From a virus, in the IMG/VR virus record IMGVR_UViG_3300025000_001092, positions 1-44,598 of that record: a stretch of DNA of 44,598 nucleotides, one strand, 5' to 3'. Below, in pieces: positions 7,161 to 34,091 of the stretch (position 1 is the stretch's first letter; the number at the start of each line of letters is the position of its first letter). The notes under the pieces were generated by a model. That model searched no databases, was not told where the DNA came from, and was given only the letters and a program-made list of their open reading frames with translations. A program made the translations under genes and the position numbers.

Positions 7161-8684
7161 ATGGAATCGGTCGCTATCTATATCCGTGTTTCAACTCGTA
7201 AACAAATGGATAATTACTCCCCGGGGGAACAGAAGCGAGTCCTAACAGAATATGCCGAAAGCCGCGGGTGGAAAATATATGATATTTACTCAGACCTGGG
7301 TGAAAGTGGTTCGGACTCCGACCGGGATGATCTCGACCGGCTCATGGTCGACGCTGGCAGAAAACTATTCAGTATGGTCCTTCTTTTCGAACAAGACCGC
7401 CTTAGCCGTCTAGAGCAACTTGATTGGGCCTACTTAGCAAACTCTTTAGCTAAACAAAATATAAGACTCGTTACTCCAACGAGCGAAATCAATCTGGATA
7501 ACGAAGAGGACCGATTCCTAGCAGACCTATTCAATCTTTTAGCCAATAGAGAATTAAAGAAAATAAAAAAGCGCACATCCATGGGTAGGGGTGCAGCAAG
7601 TCAAGATGGTGTTTACTTTGGATCTGTTCCTTTTGGCGTGACACTGAATCGCGTAACTAAGCTATGGAGCGTTGTGCCAAAACAGGTAGAAGTAACTCAA
7701 TTAGCGTTCGAGTGGTATGCAATCGATTTTGGGTTCAATGCCATTGCTAAGAGGCTGAACGATAACGGGTATCGATCACAGAAGGGTGCTAAGTTCAACT
7801 CATCGACAGTAAGCAGGATATTAACTAACCCTATTTGCCTAGGAGAATTCGAACAGACGGTCGTTGGTAAGACTTCGCGTCATACAGTTAAATGGGAGCA
7901 TGGTAATGGGCCATACATTTCAAAACAATCCTATAATCGTGTGCAGTCTATTATTGCAGAACGTGGAGAATATCAATATTTTTTAAAGGCGAAATACCTC
8001 TTAGTGGGTATTATAGTTTGCGAAGAATGCGGTAGAAAGCTACAATCTAAGCCCACACAATCAATACTAGCTAAAGGAAATAAGGTTATATATCATTACT
8101 ACGCTCACAGACAAGCAACCAAGAAAGAGTGCAGTGCCCATCACAAAATGAGCATTATTCACGGCAAAATACTTTCAACGCTTCAGGAAATAGCAGGGAA
8201 CCCCAAGAGAATAGAGTTACTCATCAAGGAGAATTCAAGACCAGTTAATACGGATGATATCAAGGAAAAACTAGAACGATGCCGAGATGAACGCGCTAAA
8301 CTAATTGATAAAAAGGGAAAGTTATTAGACTTTTATTTAGATGGAGTATGGGAAAAGGATGAACTGGACCAAAAAAAGAGGGATATAGAAATACAGATAG
8401 CTGCTATTTCAAGTAGAGAGTCCGAACTTGACCAACGCTTAACATCTTCATTAAGGACCGATGTAGATATTAAAAAGGTATCCGAGGCATTATTGATGCT
8501 TAAAGGTTTTAATGAGAACAAGGAGCTTACGGATGACCAAAAAATTACGTTAATACGAGACTTGATATCTGAGGTCAGAGTGAGTAAGTTAGGAGCGATA
8601 GAACTTTTTTTAAAGGTAAATGTTGGTAGTAATGCTTGTCCAATCATAAGCAGTGATCTTCATCTATGCTTAACTCTGGACTGA
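7161..8684 (+). CDS. int: Large serine recombinase (phage integrase)
   Basis: 507 aa with an excellent RBS (CAGGAGGTGAAACC). The N-terminal resolvase domain has the catalytic serine at residue 11 (YIRVSTRKQ) and the DRLSRLEQ segment. It is followed by the recombinase domain (GSVPFGVTLN, NDNGYRSQKGAKF, RILTNPICLGEF), a zinc ribbon from about residue 287 (CEECGRKL, then paired Cys/His about 40 residues later) and a coiled coil at about 365-430. This is the architecture of phage integrases such as those of phiC31/A118, which join attP and attB directionally. It follows the repressor and ImmA genes, a standard lysogeny cassette. All key residues seen are intact. Confidence 0.95.
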   Translation: MESVAIYIRVSTRKQMDNYSPGEQKRVLTEYAESRGWKIYDIYSDLGESGSDSDRDDLDRLMVDAGRKLFSMVLLFEQDRLSRLEQLDWAYLANSLAKQNIRLVTPTSEINLDNEEDRFLADLFNLLANRELKKIKKRTSMGRGAASQDGVYFGSVPFGVTLNRVTKLWSVVPKQVEVTQLAFEWYAIDFGFNAIAKRLNDNGYRSQKGAKFNSSTVSRILTNPICLGEFEQTVVGKTSRHTVKWEHGNGPYISKQSYNRVQSIIAERGEYQYFLKAKYLLVGIIVCEECGRKLQSKPTQSILAKGNKVIYHYYAHRQATKKECSAHHKMSIIHGKILSTLQEIAGNPKRIELLIKENSRPVNTDDIKEKLERCRDERAKLIDKKGKLLDFYLDGVWEKDELDQKKRDIEIQIAAISSRESELDQRLTSSLRTDVDIKKVSEALLMLKGFNENKELTDDQKITLIRDLISEVRVSKLGAIELFLKVNVGSNACPIISSDLHLCLTLD

Positions 8685-18054: not shown

Positions 18055-19062
18055 ATGTCTCAACAAATACTTAGCTCTACCGCCGAGATCCTACTCGAAC
18101 AGATAATGTGCACTGTTACCTTATCTTGCCCAAAAGAGGACAAACAGAAACTCCAACAAACTATAACCGGTATCCTGTCGCAATACGACATCAAGCCAGC
18201 GCTGATCCCGCATGGTCATCCGGACTTACAGCAGAAAATCAAGCTGTTCCTTGCTGGGAAACGTCTCGAAGGACTCGCTACTTCAACGCTCGAAAGTTAC
18301 ACTCTTGAACTCCGGATATTTACTGAACACATCCATAAGGCCACCAATGAGATCGCAACAGCTGATATTCGCATCTACTTAAGCGAGTTCGGACATCTCA
18401 AAACGTCCTCGATCTCTAAGAAATTGTCCGTCCTCAAGAGCATGTTTAGCTGGCTCGCGAATGAAAAAGTCATTACTTGTGATCCGACAAAGCAGATCAA
18501 GCCGCCGAAGAAGGAAAAGCGATCTCCAAAGGCACTTACAATAGAGGAACTTGAGATGATCCGGGAGGCCTGTGTCACACCCCGAGAACGAGCACTCATT
18601 GAGGTATACTATGCCACTGGTGCCCGATTGACTGAAGTACAACAGCTTAATCGCCAAGATATTGATTATCAAGCTATGTCCGTGCTGGTCATCGGGAAGG
18701 GAGATAAGGAGCGAACGGTTTACTTTAGCTTCAAAGCCATGTATCACTTGCAAAAATACCTAAAGAAGCGTTCCGACACCGTGGATGCACTGTTTGTAAC
18801 CGTGCGCAGGCCCTACCGACGGCTTTCGGCCAAGGGAATCCAACGCGAGGTTAAGATGATTCCTAAGCGATCTGAAGTGAAAAAGAATGTGCATCCGCAT
18901 GTATTTCGTCACACTTTTGCAACATTAATGTTGAATAACGGTGCCGACTTGGTCGCGGTCCAGGGATTACTCGGACACGTGGATCCGGCTACGACCCTGA
19001 TTTATTCGGTTCTGTCCGACGAAAAACGGAAGCAGTCTCACAAGCAATACCTGGTCCAATAA
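18055..19062 (+). CDS. Tyrosine recombinase (XerC/D-like integrase family)
   Basis: 335 aa. After an unusual 50-residue N-terminal extension come a SAM-like core-binding domain (about 60-145, LEGLATSTLESYTLELRIF) and the catalytic domain with R191 (GARLTEV), K215 (GKGDKER), H282 and R285 (HVFRHTF), H308 (GHVD) and Y317 (IYSVLS): a complete active set. It is a second recombinase besides the serine integrase. It could resolve multimers, move this cassette or invert DNA near the tail-fibre genes. It ends in a terminator. Confidence 0.9.
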   Translation: MSQQILSSTAEILLEQIMCTVTLSCPKEDKQKLQQTITGILSQYDIKPALIPHGHPDLQQKIKLFLAGKRLEGLATSTLESYTLELRIFTEHIHKATNEIATADIRIYLSEFGHLKTSSISKKLSVLKSMFSWLANEKVITCDPTKQIKPPKKEKRSPKALTIEELEMIREACVTPRERALIEVYYATGARLTEVQQLNRQDIDYQAMSVLVIGKGDKERTVYFSFKAMYHLQKYLKKRSDTVDALFVTVRRPYRRLSAKGIQREVKMIPKRSEVKKNVHPHVFRHTFATLMLNNGADLVAVQGLLGHVDPATTLIYSVLSDEKRKQSHKQYLVQ

Positions 19063-29929: not shown

Positions 29930-32260
29930 TTATCGGATCACCCCCTGAAAGTGCCTAGTTAGGGCAGAGGTCGAAGTCCTAGTAACTGTTGTTGCTACCG
30001 ATTGTGGATCCTTTGCTCCATAGATATTGTAGGTTTGCTTCACGGCAACTTGGGACATATTGGACGTGTTAGATTGAGGGTAAAGATAGTTCATTGACCC
30101 ACCTGCGCCTACTAGGGGACTAGAACCACCGTAGCTCTTGGCGGTCTGGAATAAACCCTTAGAAATGTCTCCGAACTCTTTAGGGATGCTGTTCATGAAG
30201 GAGACAAAGCCCTTTTTAAGAGCAGACCAGTCAACCGTGGAGGCTTCGGTATTCGCTCCCGGAATACTGTCCTTGAATGAACTCCATACTGGGGTAGGAT
30301 CTGGCTTAGATTCGGAGTAATAATGCGAATTTTCCGTCGTCTGGTTATGGGTATTTTCCGTCAGGTAATGGTTTTGAGTAGTATTGTTCGATTGATCAGG
30401 CGTAACGGATTTCGGCCTAATACTGTCAAGGAGGTCCATGAGACCGATTTTTAACGTACCCCAGTCGATAGATGGCGCGCCTGTATCGGTTTCAGGAATA
30501 CTGTCTTTAAGAGGACTCCACATAGGGGCTTGAATAGGCTTAGGAGCTTGAATAGTTTGGTAATTATTCGTGGTCTGATGGTTCTGATTTGTCTCATAGG
30601 ATACCTGTCCTGCCTTGGGGGATTGGGAGTGATTATCCGACGAAGTGTCCTTGAGGAAAATCTTAGACCATAAATTACTGATCTCTGCGCCGATGCCGTT
30701 TGAGAAGTAATCCCGAATTCCTTTTAAGGAATTCTTATTATACTCATCAACCTTGCCCTCGCGTTCTTTGAGTCGCTTCTTGGCCTCGGTCTCTGCTGGA
30801 GACTCTTTCATAAGTCCTTTAGGCACGCCATCAATAAACATATCGAGGCCCTTTTTAATATTGCTAAAGTCACCGGTTGAAAGCCCCTTGATTCCACCCG
30901 CAACAATAGTTACTAGGCCAGCTATAGACCTCATAACATCCATGAATTTTTCAAAACCAGATATAAGACCTGTGGATAAGGCACCACCTAGACCGCCTTT
31001 TCCGAGAGCATTAATTAGTTCCCCAACAGCATCCATTAGGTCATGAACACTAGTAAAAGCATCGCCAAGCAATTGACCAAATTTATCAAAATCACCGTTG
31101 TCTTTTAATTTGTTATAAAGCTTAACTAGCCAGTTCCATGTATTCTCGATTCCGTGCCAAAGAATTTCGATTATATCCTTACTGTCGCCAATAAACTTCT
31201 TGAAAGTCTCGGATTGACCTACTTTTTCTAACCATTCGCCGAATTCCTTGAGGCTTTCAATGATACCGTCGAGTTTATTATTGAATTCTTCGGACCCAAG
31301 GTATTCCTCAACCTTTGCAGCAAATTCCTTGACGTCCTCAATGATACTCATCAGGCCATTCTTAAACTTACCTATAGAGCCGTCGTCTTCCAGACTCTTT
31401 TTGAACTTATCAACTGATCTCCATAGATCATTAAACACCGAACTCTTACCGCTTTTATCATCCTCAAATGCCCTGTAGTCATCTACTAATAACAAGAGAG
31501 TTGTCAAGCCAAGTATAAATGCTCCAAACGGATTGCTTGCCATTTTTATCAATGTAAGGGCAGTAAAGACCCCGGCGGCAGCCTTTAGCCCATCCCTGAT
31601 ATACCAAGCCGCTTCACCTAGTCTAACTGCCCAGCTCGCTACCTCGGCAATCTTCTTCGACCACTTTGGCATATTGTCTTGTATCTCGTCATTAATTTTC
31701 CTCAGCCAATCGCGGGAATCACCCAATGGTCCAGCGAGATACTTCGTGAGGTAGTACCCAACCCATTGTAAGGTATATGTTCCCTCAAGCTTTAGACGCT
31801 GGAACTCGAAGGTTATATCGCGAACGCCCTGCATCTGCTTGCTGTATTCCTCGGCTGGAACTCCCATGTCTCTGGCCTGACGGTTGAGTTCGAGGTATTT
31901 GTCCATTAGTTCGGGACTAAGGTAAAGGTCGTTAACGCTGACACCAAGCGCATCGATGGAGGCTTGGTATGCTTTTGCTGCGTCTTTCGACATCCACATT
32001 CTGCGTGCAAACATCTCGGTTTGGAGGTCAGACTGAGCTAAGCTAACGAGATACTTACCCAATGCGATATTTGCTGTTGCTACGAACGAGACGACTGCCG
32101 TGGAAGCCTTGGCAAAGTTTTTGACGCTAGAGCTAGCAAAGCTGTCGACTGATGACTCAATAACTCCCATGGCTTTCTTCGCTGAATTGACTGACGAATC
32201 ATTGACATGAAAACCTAGGCTAATAAGGTAACTTTTAATTGTATCTAACACTTTAATCAC
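29930..32260 (-). CDS. Tape measure protein
   Basis: 776 aa, following the chaperone/homing-endonuclease genes. A helical N-terminal region (KKAMGVIESSVDSFASSSVKNF), membrane-like segments (ASTAVVSFVATANIALG; FGAFILGLTTLLLLVDDYRAFE) and long helices (KVEEYLGSEEFNNKLDGI) are typical. Length fixes tail length; 776 residues imply a tail of roughly 110-120 nm at about 1.5 A per residue. The C-terminal 200 residues hold a duplicated unit around WSPLKDSIPETDTGAPSIDW and WSSFKDSIPGANTEASTVDW. Confidence 0.9.
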   Translation of the reverse strand: MIKVLDTIKSYLISLGFHVNDSSVNSAKKAMGVIESSVDSFASSSVKNFAKASTAVVSFVATANIALGKYLVSLAQSDLQTEMFARRMWMSKDAAKAYQASIDALGVSVNDLYLSPELMDKYLELNRQARDMGVPAEEYSKQMQGVRDITFEFQRLKLEGTYTLQWVGYYLTKYLAGPLGDSRDWLRKINDEIQDNMPKWSKKIAEVASWAVRLGEAAWYIRDGLKAAAGVFTALTLIKMASNPFGAFILGLTTLLLLVDDYRAFEDDKSGKSSVFNDLWRSVDKFKKSLEDDGSIGKFKNGLMSIIEDVKEFAAKVEEYLGSEEFNNKLDGIIESLKEFGEWLEKVGQSETFKKFIGDSKDIIEILWHGIENTWNWLVKLYNKLKDNGDFDKFGQLLGDAFTSVHDLMDAVGELINALGKGGLGGALSTGLISGFEKFMDVMRSIAGLVTIVAGGIKGLSTGDFSNIKKGLDMFIDGVPKGLMKESPAETEAKKRLKEREGKVDEYNKNSLKGIRDYFSNGIGAEISNLWSKIFLKDTSSDNHSQSPKAGQVSYETNQNHQTTNNYQTIQAPKPIQAPMWSPLKDSIPETDTGAPSIDWGTLKIGLMDLLDSIRPKSVTPDQSNNTTQNHYLTENTHNQTTENSHYYSESKPDPTPVWSSFKDSIPGANTEASTVDWSALKKGFVSFMNSIPKEFGDISKGLFQTAKSYGGSSPLVGAGGSMNYLYPQSNTSNMSQVAVKQTYNIYGAKDPQSVATTVTRTSTSALTRHFQGVIR

Positions 32261-32952
32261 CCACCCTGTGCCAAAGCTCTCTCAGTGGTCCACCCTTGTA
32301 CAATTCTTTTGTACAAGGTATCTTTCTTAACACCTATTTCCTTGGCCCATTCAGTTAGAGTTCTTACTTCTCCGTTATACTCTATTTTAGGATTATAATT
32401 ATTATAGTTTAATATTTTTTCAGGGGTCCAACCCTTGAAATATCTGGTTTTCAGAGTGCTGTAACTCACTCCCAACTTAATAGACCACTCTTTCAGGGAT
32501 AAACATTCCCCATTGAATTCAAGATAAATTCCTCTTGATCTTTGATTTATGGACCTTTCTGCTCCCCATCCATTTTTTAATCTTTTGCAGAAAGAGGACT
32601 TGCTTATATTTGTTTCCTTAGACCAATCTGATGCGCATTGAATTTTTCCATTATGTTCTATCATGACTGTATCTGATCTGTTTTTATTCTGTTCCTCATA
32701 GGTAGACCACTTGCAATTATCTTTTGAATACCCTTTATCGTTGTCAATTCTGTCTAAAGTTAATCCTGTTGGAGCAACTCCCATATCTTCAAGAAAATTT
32801 TCAAATGAATCCAACCACCGACTACATACAGTTATTCCTCTTCCGCCATATCTATCATAGGCAATATTTTTGGGGTAATAACATCTGCTTTTCATGCTGC
32901 GCCAAGAGTGATATGTTCTTGTATTAGTCATGCCATGAGTTATATTCGCCAT
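32257..32952 (-). CDS. HNH-type homing endonuclease-like protein with three NUMOD-like repeats
   Basis: 231 aa from the ATG at 32952. Residues about 5-80 carry the pattern HGMTNTRTYHSWRSMKSRCY, YDRYGGRGITVCSRWLDSF, LTLDRIDNDKGYSKDNCKW, seen in phage HNH/AP2-type homing proteins. Three tandem repeats of about 40 residues follow: (I/L)E-(H/F/Y)-NG...L-xx-W-(S/A)-xx...S/T-xx-x-(K/R)-R-xxxGW-xxE-(R/K)-(S/I/A), DNA-recognition helices. The gene is visibly richer in A/T than the capsid and tail genes. It sits between the tail chaperone and tape measure and overlaps the latter as ATGA. It is probably a self-inserting element carried by the late operon. Confidence 0.82.
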   Translation of the reverse strand: MANITHGMTNTRTYHSWRSMKSRCYYPKNIAYDRYGGRGITVCSRWLDSFENFLEDMGVAPTGLTLDRIDNDKGYSKDNCKWSTYEEQNKNRSDTVMIEHNGKIQCASDWSKETNISKSSFCKRLKNGWGAERSINQRSRGIYLEFNGECLSLKEWSIKLGVSYSTLKTRYFKGWTPEKILNYNNYNPKIEYNGEVRTLTEWAKEIGVKKDTLYKRIVQGWTTERALAQGG

Positions 32953-32997
32953 CACACTACCGCCTTAATAAATATTGGAATAGGAAAAACCCACTGA

Positions 32998-33644
32998 TTA
33001 TATTCGGTGGGTTTCTTCTTGCGCCTCATTAGCTCTCTGTTCATTCTCATGCCTCACTGCCATCATCTCATGTGCGTCCAAGAGATCGTCCAACGTATAT
33101 GTTCCATCCCAAGTCTCACATTGCTTCCACATCCCGCCCATAACCGGCCCCATAACGAATTCATCTACATTTTCGCAGTGAACGACTTCGTACTTAATAA
33201 TCCCCTTAGTATTCCAGCCAAGGGGCTTCCGGAGAAAAAACTTGTCATATTAAATACCAATACATGTGCCACTAATGCGAGAGTCGTTGCAGAATCCTCC
33301 GCTAACTCACTCACCCCAAAGTAGCCGTCTGGATTCATGACCCTCGTTGGTCCTGCTGGCAAATTCTCAAAGCACACCTGCAGGCATTTGTTGTATACGT
33401 AATCAAAGTCTTGCTCTGTCAGGGATGACAATCCTGAAACTATGCCAGCAATATCAATGTCGCCGAGATCGAACGCGCCATCCTCCTTGGCTTTCATCTT
33501 CTTCAGATCCAAGCCCTTAAGTAATGGAGCAATCAAACCTGTTACTTTGATCAACATAAAAGAACCGGTTCGAGCGTCAAACTTACGAATGACAAACTTC
33601 CGGCCCTTAATTTCGACTTCTTTACAATTTTCATAATTTTTCAC
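32998..33644 (-). CDS. Tail assembly chaperone, -1 frameshifted long form (GT)
   Basis: The short form (33165-33644, 159 aa) is followed in the -1 frame by an open, well-formed 78-codon extension ending at TAA at 32998. It joins after codon 137 at T TTT TTC (33240-33234), giving about 215 aa. The extension contains GWNTKGIIKYEVVHCEN and MWKQCETWDGTYTLDDLLDA with an acidic helical end (HENEQRANEAQEET). The TYTLxDLLDAHEMM pattern is like T-domain halves of tail chaperones in contractile phages. It coats the tape measure protein and recruits tube subunits. Confidence 0.82.
33165..33644 (-). CDS. Tail assembly chaperone, short form (G)
   Basis: 159 aa. KNYENCKEVEIKGRKFVIRKFDARTG (in two parts) and a beta-then-helical layout (LSSLTEQDFDYVYNKCLQVC, LVAHVLVFNM) match G-type tail chaperones. 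It lies immediately after the tube gene and ahead of the tape measure, the conserved position. Its 3' third overlaps the alternate frame used by the long form. Confidence 0.85.
   Translation of the reverse strand: MKNYENCKEVEIKGRKFVIRKFDARTGSFMLIKVTGLIAPLLKGLDLKKMKAKEDGAFDLGDIDIAGIVSGLSSLTEQDFDYVYNKCLQVCFENLPAGPTRVMNPDGYFGVSELAEDSATTLALVAHVLVFNMTSFFSGSPLAGILRGLLSTKSFTAKM
33234..33240 (-). other. Programmed -1 frameshift site T TTT TTC
   Basis: In the zero frame codons read AGT TTT TTC; slipping back one base still pairs TTT TTT and enters the open frame CTC CGG AAG. No clear downstream pseudoknot was worked out, though GC-rich GGAAGCCCCTTGGCTGG follows within 5 nt and could form a hairpin. 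Confidence 0.8.
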
Positions 33645-33656
33645 AGGAAATCCTCC

Positions 33657-34091
33657 TTAAAAGGTTCTCTGGATATCAGCTGCCATGAGCGTCCATGTCA
33701 AATTCTGACCTTGTGCTTGTCGTGGATTGCTTGGCAATTTAGTAAATGATACCCCTGTGCACGACTCCGTTTCGCCCGTTGCTAAGGTTGTAATAGTAAT
33801 AGATGTTGCTGCCCATTTCTCAGCCGTAGCGGCTTCGAGGTAATTATAAAGCTTAGTTAACCATTGATGAGCGGCAGACGTTTGCTGAAGGACTATGGCA
33901 ATAGTTCCGTTTCTACCATTTACCTTTGACACCATAACTGCTCCATCAGCAGCGGTTTCGTGAGTTGTCCGGTCAGTAGTCATCTCAGTTGTTATTGACC
34001 CAAGGCCCTCGCCTGTAATTGTTCTATTACCAAAATCATGATTACTAACAACCACCGATACATCATTTAGGCTATAGGTACTATAAGCCAT
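33657..34091 (-). CDS. Tail tube protein (DUF3277-like)
   Basis: 144 aa. YSLNDVSVVVSNHDFGNR, TTDRTTHETAADGAVMVSKVNGRNGTIAIVL (in parts) and GVSFTKLPSNPRQAQGQNLTW fit the tube protein of DUF3383/DUF3277-type contractile tails. It forms the inner tube inside the sheath. It is immediately downstream of the sheath gene. Confidence 0.88.
   Translation of the reverse strand: MAYSTYSLNDVSVVVSNHDFGNRTITGEGLGSITTEMTTDRTTHETAADGAVMVSKVNGRNGTIAIVLQQTSAAHQWLTKLYNYLEAATAEKWAATSITITTLATGETESCTGVSFTKLPSNPRQAQGQNLTWTLMAADIQRTF

Follow-up and report, generated by a model that had tools for sequence, protein, structure and literature searches.

DUF6889 as a probable frameshift-only T domain of Phage_TAC_15 tail assembly chaperones, examined at a myophage locus with a predicted slip site and hairpin

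Frameshifted tail chaperones are a long-known trick of tailed phages. In phage lambda, a -1 frameshift that occurs at low level close to where the chaperone gene ends yields gpGT, a minor product longer than gpG (PMC5009743). In Vandenendeviridae such as phage Adele, a conserved -1 frameshift (TAC-N and TAC-NC) was argued for computationally from 56 alleles, in a chaperone gene that immediately precedes the tape measure gene and carries a conserved poly-T motif, GTTTTT (PMC12846349). Klebsiella phage Mulock (QFG06717) and Burkholderia phage Magia both have a joined CDS annotated as a tape measure chaperone frameshift product; for Magia, the announcement of the phage also describes a programmed frameshift (PMC7883833).

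The window that we analyzed, which is the whole 44,598-nucleotide stretch of the IMG/VR virus record IMGVR_UViG_3300025000_001092, contains on its minus strand a chaperone locus that, judging from sequence comparisons, is almost certainly a tail chaperone pair of the lambda G/GT type made by programmed -1 ribosomal frameshifting, and thus a pair of a known kind (Table 1). Mulock shows the same family pair as the window, with PF21822 in the zero frame (1.6e-34) and PF21829 in the -1 part (6.4e-20), around a T TTT TTG slip site, so that at least one genome already carries an annotated frameshift for the PF21822/PF21829 combination. The -1 part of Magia is also PF21829, but this phage lacks the run of six T. 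Gene order in both phages is the same as in the window, whereas their sequences are distant; the chaperone of Mulock-related Escherichia phages, for example, is about 28% identical to that of the window. The Vandenendeviridae system can be likened to this locus by its frameshift, its gene position and its poly-T motif (GTTTTT versus T TTT TTY here), and this family includes KPP10, whose Orf10 gave its name to the tube protein family found in the window. Lambda, in contrast, is a siphovirus whose slip site and sequences differ from those of the window, and functions are assigned here by analogy with it only. A G/GT pair arising from a -1 frameshift had already been proposed by a sequence-only reading of this DNA, and the family matches, the conserved -1 frame and the Mulock and Magia annotations support that proposal; the frames and sizes that it gave were right, while it left out that the locus is on the minus strand and overlooked the downstream hairpin.

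Table 1. Features of the tail module around the predicted frameshift, with window coordinates.
Feature	Coordinates	Strand	Evidence and remarks
Sheath (DUF3383)	35567-34104	-	
Tail tube protein (KPP10_Orf10)	33657..34091	-	PF11681, E 3.8e-41; presumed T-domain client
Zero-frame tail assembly chaperone (G-like), 159 aa	33165..33644	-	PF21822 Phage_TAC_15, E 3.9e-19; phrog_1688 tail assembly chaperone; GTG start at 33644 with AAGGAGG upstream, stop at 33165
Slippery heptamer T TTT TTC	33234..33240	-	Phase and place conserved among relatives
Putative stimulator hairpin CCCCTTGG-CTGGAATA-CTAAGGGG	33202..33225	-	-11.6 kcal/mol; predicted folding, covariation
-1-frame T-like extension, 78 codons + TAA	32998..33233	-	DUF6889: PF21829, E 6.5e-9; phrog_4364, E 6.4e-16
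HNH endonuclease ORF, 232 aa, not part of the chaperone	32257..32955	-	phrog_3377, E 6.6e-73
Tape measure protein, presumed chaperone client	29930..32260	-	Position, length, low-scoring tail/tape measure phrog matches, relatives with homologues at this position

The chaperone gene is placed between the tube and tape measure genes, as in G/GT systems, with the endonuclease ORF inserted. Its zero-frame product is a member of PF21822 (69.9 bits against a gathering cut-off of 22), as are 37 of 38 aligned relatives. A profile search with the chaperone against PDB sequences found no relative, and NCBIfam holds no model for either the chaperone or the extension. We then compared an AlphaFold (AF2) model of the zero-frame product (mean pLDDT 73.6) with known structures using VIA-align: the HK97 tail assembly chaperone (2ob9) appeared in the second row with a Z of 6.5 over 91 residues, a value that is not firm by itself since it lies below 8, and this resemblance fits the tail-chaperone reading as modest evidence. 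ORF19 of a PICI-like element of Vibrio cholerae (5ir0) scored above the HK97 chaperone, with a Z of 9.9, a model-based match suggesting that proteins resembling tail chaperones may also be encoded by a phage satellite; a literature search on this point returned nothing.

The sequence-only reading had placed T TTT TTC in the zero frame of the tail chaperone gene, and the codons across this site are indeed AGT TTT TTC, the right phase for a -1 slip. From there, as it had also noted, the -1 frame stays open up to a TAA (33000-32998) that precedes the homing endonuclease, for exactly 78 further codons past the heptamer. The predicted fusion has 215 residues, with VMNPDGYFGVSELAEDSATTLALVAHVLVFNMTSFFLR as its predicted junction peptide, and a computed mass of 24.27 kDa where roughly 24 kDa had been announced. 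Among the window ORFs of at least 120 codons, the chaperone ORF is the sole one that has both an in-phase slippery heptamer and a -1 extension reaching 20 codons or more; this, together with the constant frame relation in the relatives described below, speaks against a chance arrangement.

Relatives were mostly retrieved through their sheath protein and were therefore not selected for the presence of an extension. In all 74 loci where both parts are present (60 distinct alleles; the window and some repeated contigs are counted), the extension lies in the -1 frame relative to the chaperone, so that a loss of the open -1 frame in close relatives, which would have spoken against the proposal, did not appear. 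An in-phase T TTT TTN is found at the same place in 72 of these loci, giving the conserved slippery site and open -1 extension that characterize G/GT pairs. The other two, L042 and L073, lack a canonical heptamer, and slippage there would have to use a less strict site whose A-site codon is Phe TTT. We observed that these two, together with L141 and L086, keep a -1 extension without T TTT TTN and read C GTT TTT, G CTT TTT or C GGT TTT, where only the Phe TTT codon of the A site can re-pair in full. A T precedes the two Phe codons in every one of the 54 non-redundant loci that carry the heptamer, while the codon that this T ends varies (GGT, AGT, GAT, CCT, TCT or GTT); since it closes six different codon types, this T is not kept for the sake of the protein. 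A search of bacterial genomes that used the extension alignment alone as query recovered 66 loci, mostly from Firmicutes, and the same heptamer was present inside a chaperone-length ORF in 60 of these prophage loci; the nearest one, on a Desulfosporosinus contig, is 67% identical.

Downstream of the heptamer, the window can form a hairpin with an 8-bp stem and an 8-nt loop that begins 8 nt past the slip site. Averaged over the 54 loci, the RNA folding z-score is -1.15 in the segment that directly follows the heptamer; offsets from -150 to +195 were tested, and none of the others gave a mean outside the range of -0.3 to +0.7. In the window itself, the 71-nt region does not fold exceptionally (z -0.80), and a shorter segment gives a z of -2.1. 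The register of the stem shifts by about one base from one hairpin to another, which made a single ungapped alignment of all hairpins unusable for counting pairs, and two register groups were therefore counted apart. Stem pairs change on both sides across loci (for example from C-G to G-C), and pairing drops from 96% to about 60% when the stem is slid by one base; since the register groups were chosen after the stems had been seen, the shuffle-based z-score is the fairer test. Covarying hairpins occur at this site in many relatives, while some have no strong hairpin, and Rfam detected no family at threshold in the window. This hairpin also bears on the idea that the fusion comes from RNA polymerase slippage on the T run rather than from slippage of the ribosome. 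Every canonical site is indeed a run of T, but in 37 of the 54 loci this run has just six T, a short stretch for an RNA polymerase to slip on, and a covarying hairpin lies downstream at a spacing typical of ribosomal sites, making transcriptional slippage very improbable.

The extension itself looks like a protein-coding sequence. Compared with L003, the closest relative without the endonuclease, its dN/dS outside the overlap is about 0.12 (0.106/0.87), far below 1, and on this estimate it is under purifying selection. Within the overlap, the -1 frame is better kept than the zero frame in some distant pairs (window versus L031: pN 0.31 and 0.58, respectively). The window extension is a member of PF21829 (35.8 bits against a gathering cut-off of 23.9), and 45 of 46 aligned relatives are also above the cut-off. 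Pfam lists this family, DUF6889, as being of function unknown, and a literature search for DUF6889 found nothing. An AlphaFold model of the extension has a long helix at the C-terminus, predicted with high confidence, besides two short helices; a Foldseek search of the PDB with this model gave no usable match. The expected similarity to a T domain was found in this family membership, since DUF6889 is the annotated frameshift part in Mulock and Magia. It had also been predicted that ORF callers would miss such an extension, and this is borne out by five public records (MW202455, NC_020841, OP172633, ON470588 and PV092592) with no CDS over it.

A reading in which the extension forms a small gene of its own, translated from an internal start without any fusion, is even less probable than polymerase slippage. 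The open frame does have internal ATG codons, and Pfam models DUF6889 as a 40-residue family by itself. Conservation, however, begins at the slip site itself, upstream of any start, and R4, just past the slip, is invariant in 46 sequences. Moreover, just 2 of the 54 loci have a start codon with a Shine-Dalgarno-like motif early in the extension, the window's extension having none, and a separate gene would leave the conservation of the heptamer and of the hairpin without a reason. As for a sequencing error or a decayed gene that would have split one ORF into two, nothing beyond the frame change itself speaks for it, and it is refuted to near certainty by the recurrence of that frame change at the same place in every one of the 74 loci (60 alleles) and of the heptamer in the bacterial genomes (60/66).

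Under programmed ribosomal frameshifting, most ribosomes would stop at 33165 and release the 159-residue chaperone, whereas a minority, paused by the hairpin (33225-33202), would slip by -1 on T TTT TTC and read the DUF6889 extension to make the 215-residue fusion; we infer both that this slip occurs and that its rate is low. The lambda system suggests, by analogy, that the N-terminal part shared by both products would coat the tape measure protein, while tube subunits would be recruited by the rare extension.

The junction between the extension and the tape measure gene differs among relatives. The endonuclease is absent in L003 to L007. In L003 and L005, the extension terminates in ...RANEAGREEQ, immediately followed by the ATG of the tape measure gene, whose likely ribosome-binding site is GGGAGGGAGG. 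In the window, homology of the extension ends after ...RANEA, the actual terminus is QEETHRI, and the tape measure gene starts, with GTG, before the endonuclease ORF has ended. The endonuclease allele thus alters the last T residues and lacks the usual tape measure binding site. The altered region spans 32257-33012, and L002 and L010 (one IMG/VR contig) share this allele. A terminator-like hairpin (AAACCCAC-12 nt-GTGGGTTT then TT, 32983-33015) lies across the extension stop in the endonuclease allele. In L014, L016, L054, L072 and L074, the extension and the tape measure gene lie further apart; insertions like the endonuclease were considered there and rejected, the additional sequence being read as longer N-termini of the tape measure protein. 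The longer gap of L018 was likewise rejected as an endonuclease-like insertion, since the ORF found there (L018:5506-6072) looks like a second tube protein; it recalls the tube duplications reported in Vandenendeviridae. Elsewhere in the window, we observed a second homing-endonuclease-associated protein (HNH_repeat, PF18780; 14029-14823) and, in this one phage record, two unlike integrases, one being a serine recombinase and the other a tyrosine integrase (7161-8684 and 18055-19062).

Altogether, it is very likely that DUF6889 is a T domain of Phage_TAC_15 chaperones that is made only by frameshifting, not as a free-standing protein, across myophages of Firmicutes and Proteobacteria, that it is mostly reached through a poly-U slip site followed by a covarying hairpin, and that the HNH gene of the window, at the T/tape measure junction, changed the end of T. 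Added here to what was known are the role of DUF6889 as a T domain, the covarying stimulator hairpin and the allele with an HNH gene between T and tape measure. This would give a likely role to a family of function unknown and explain the stretch of about 110-195 bp without a CDS that separates chaperone and tape measure in the public phage records examined, and the large alignment that we supply could be used by annotation tools to recognize the frameshift.
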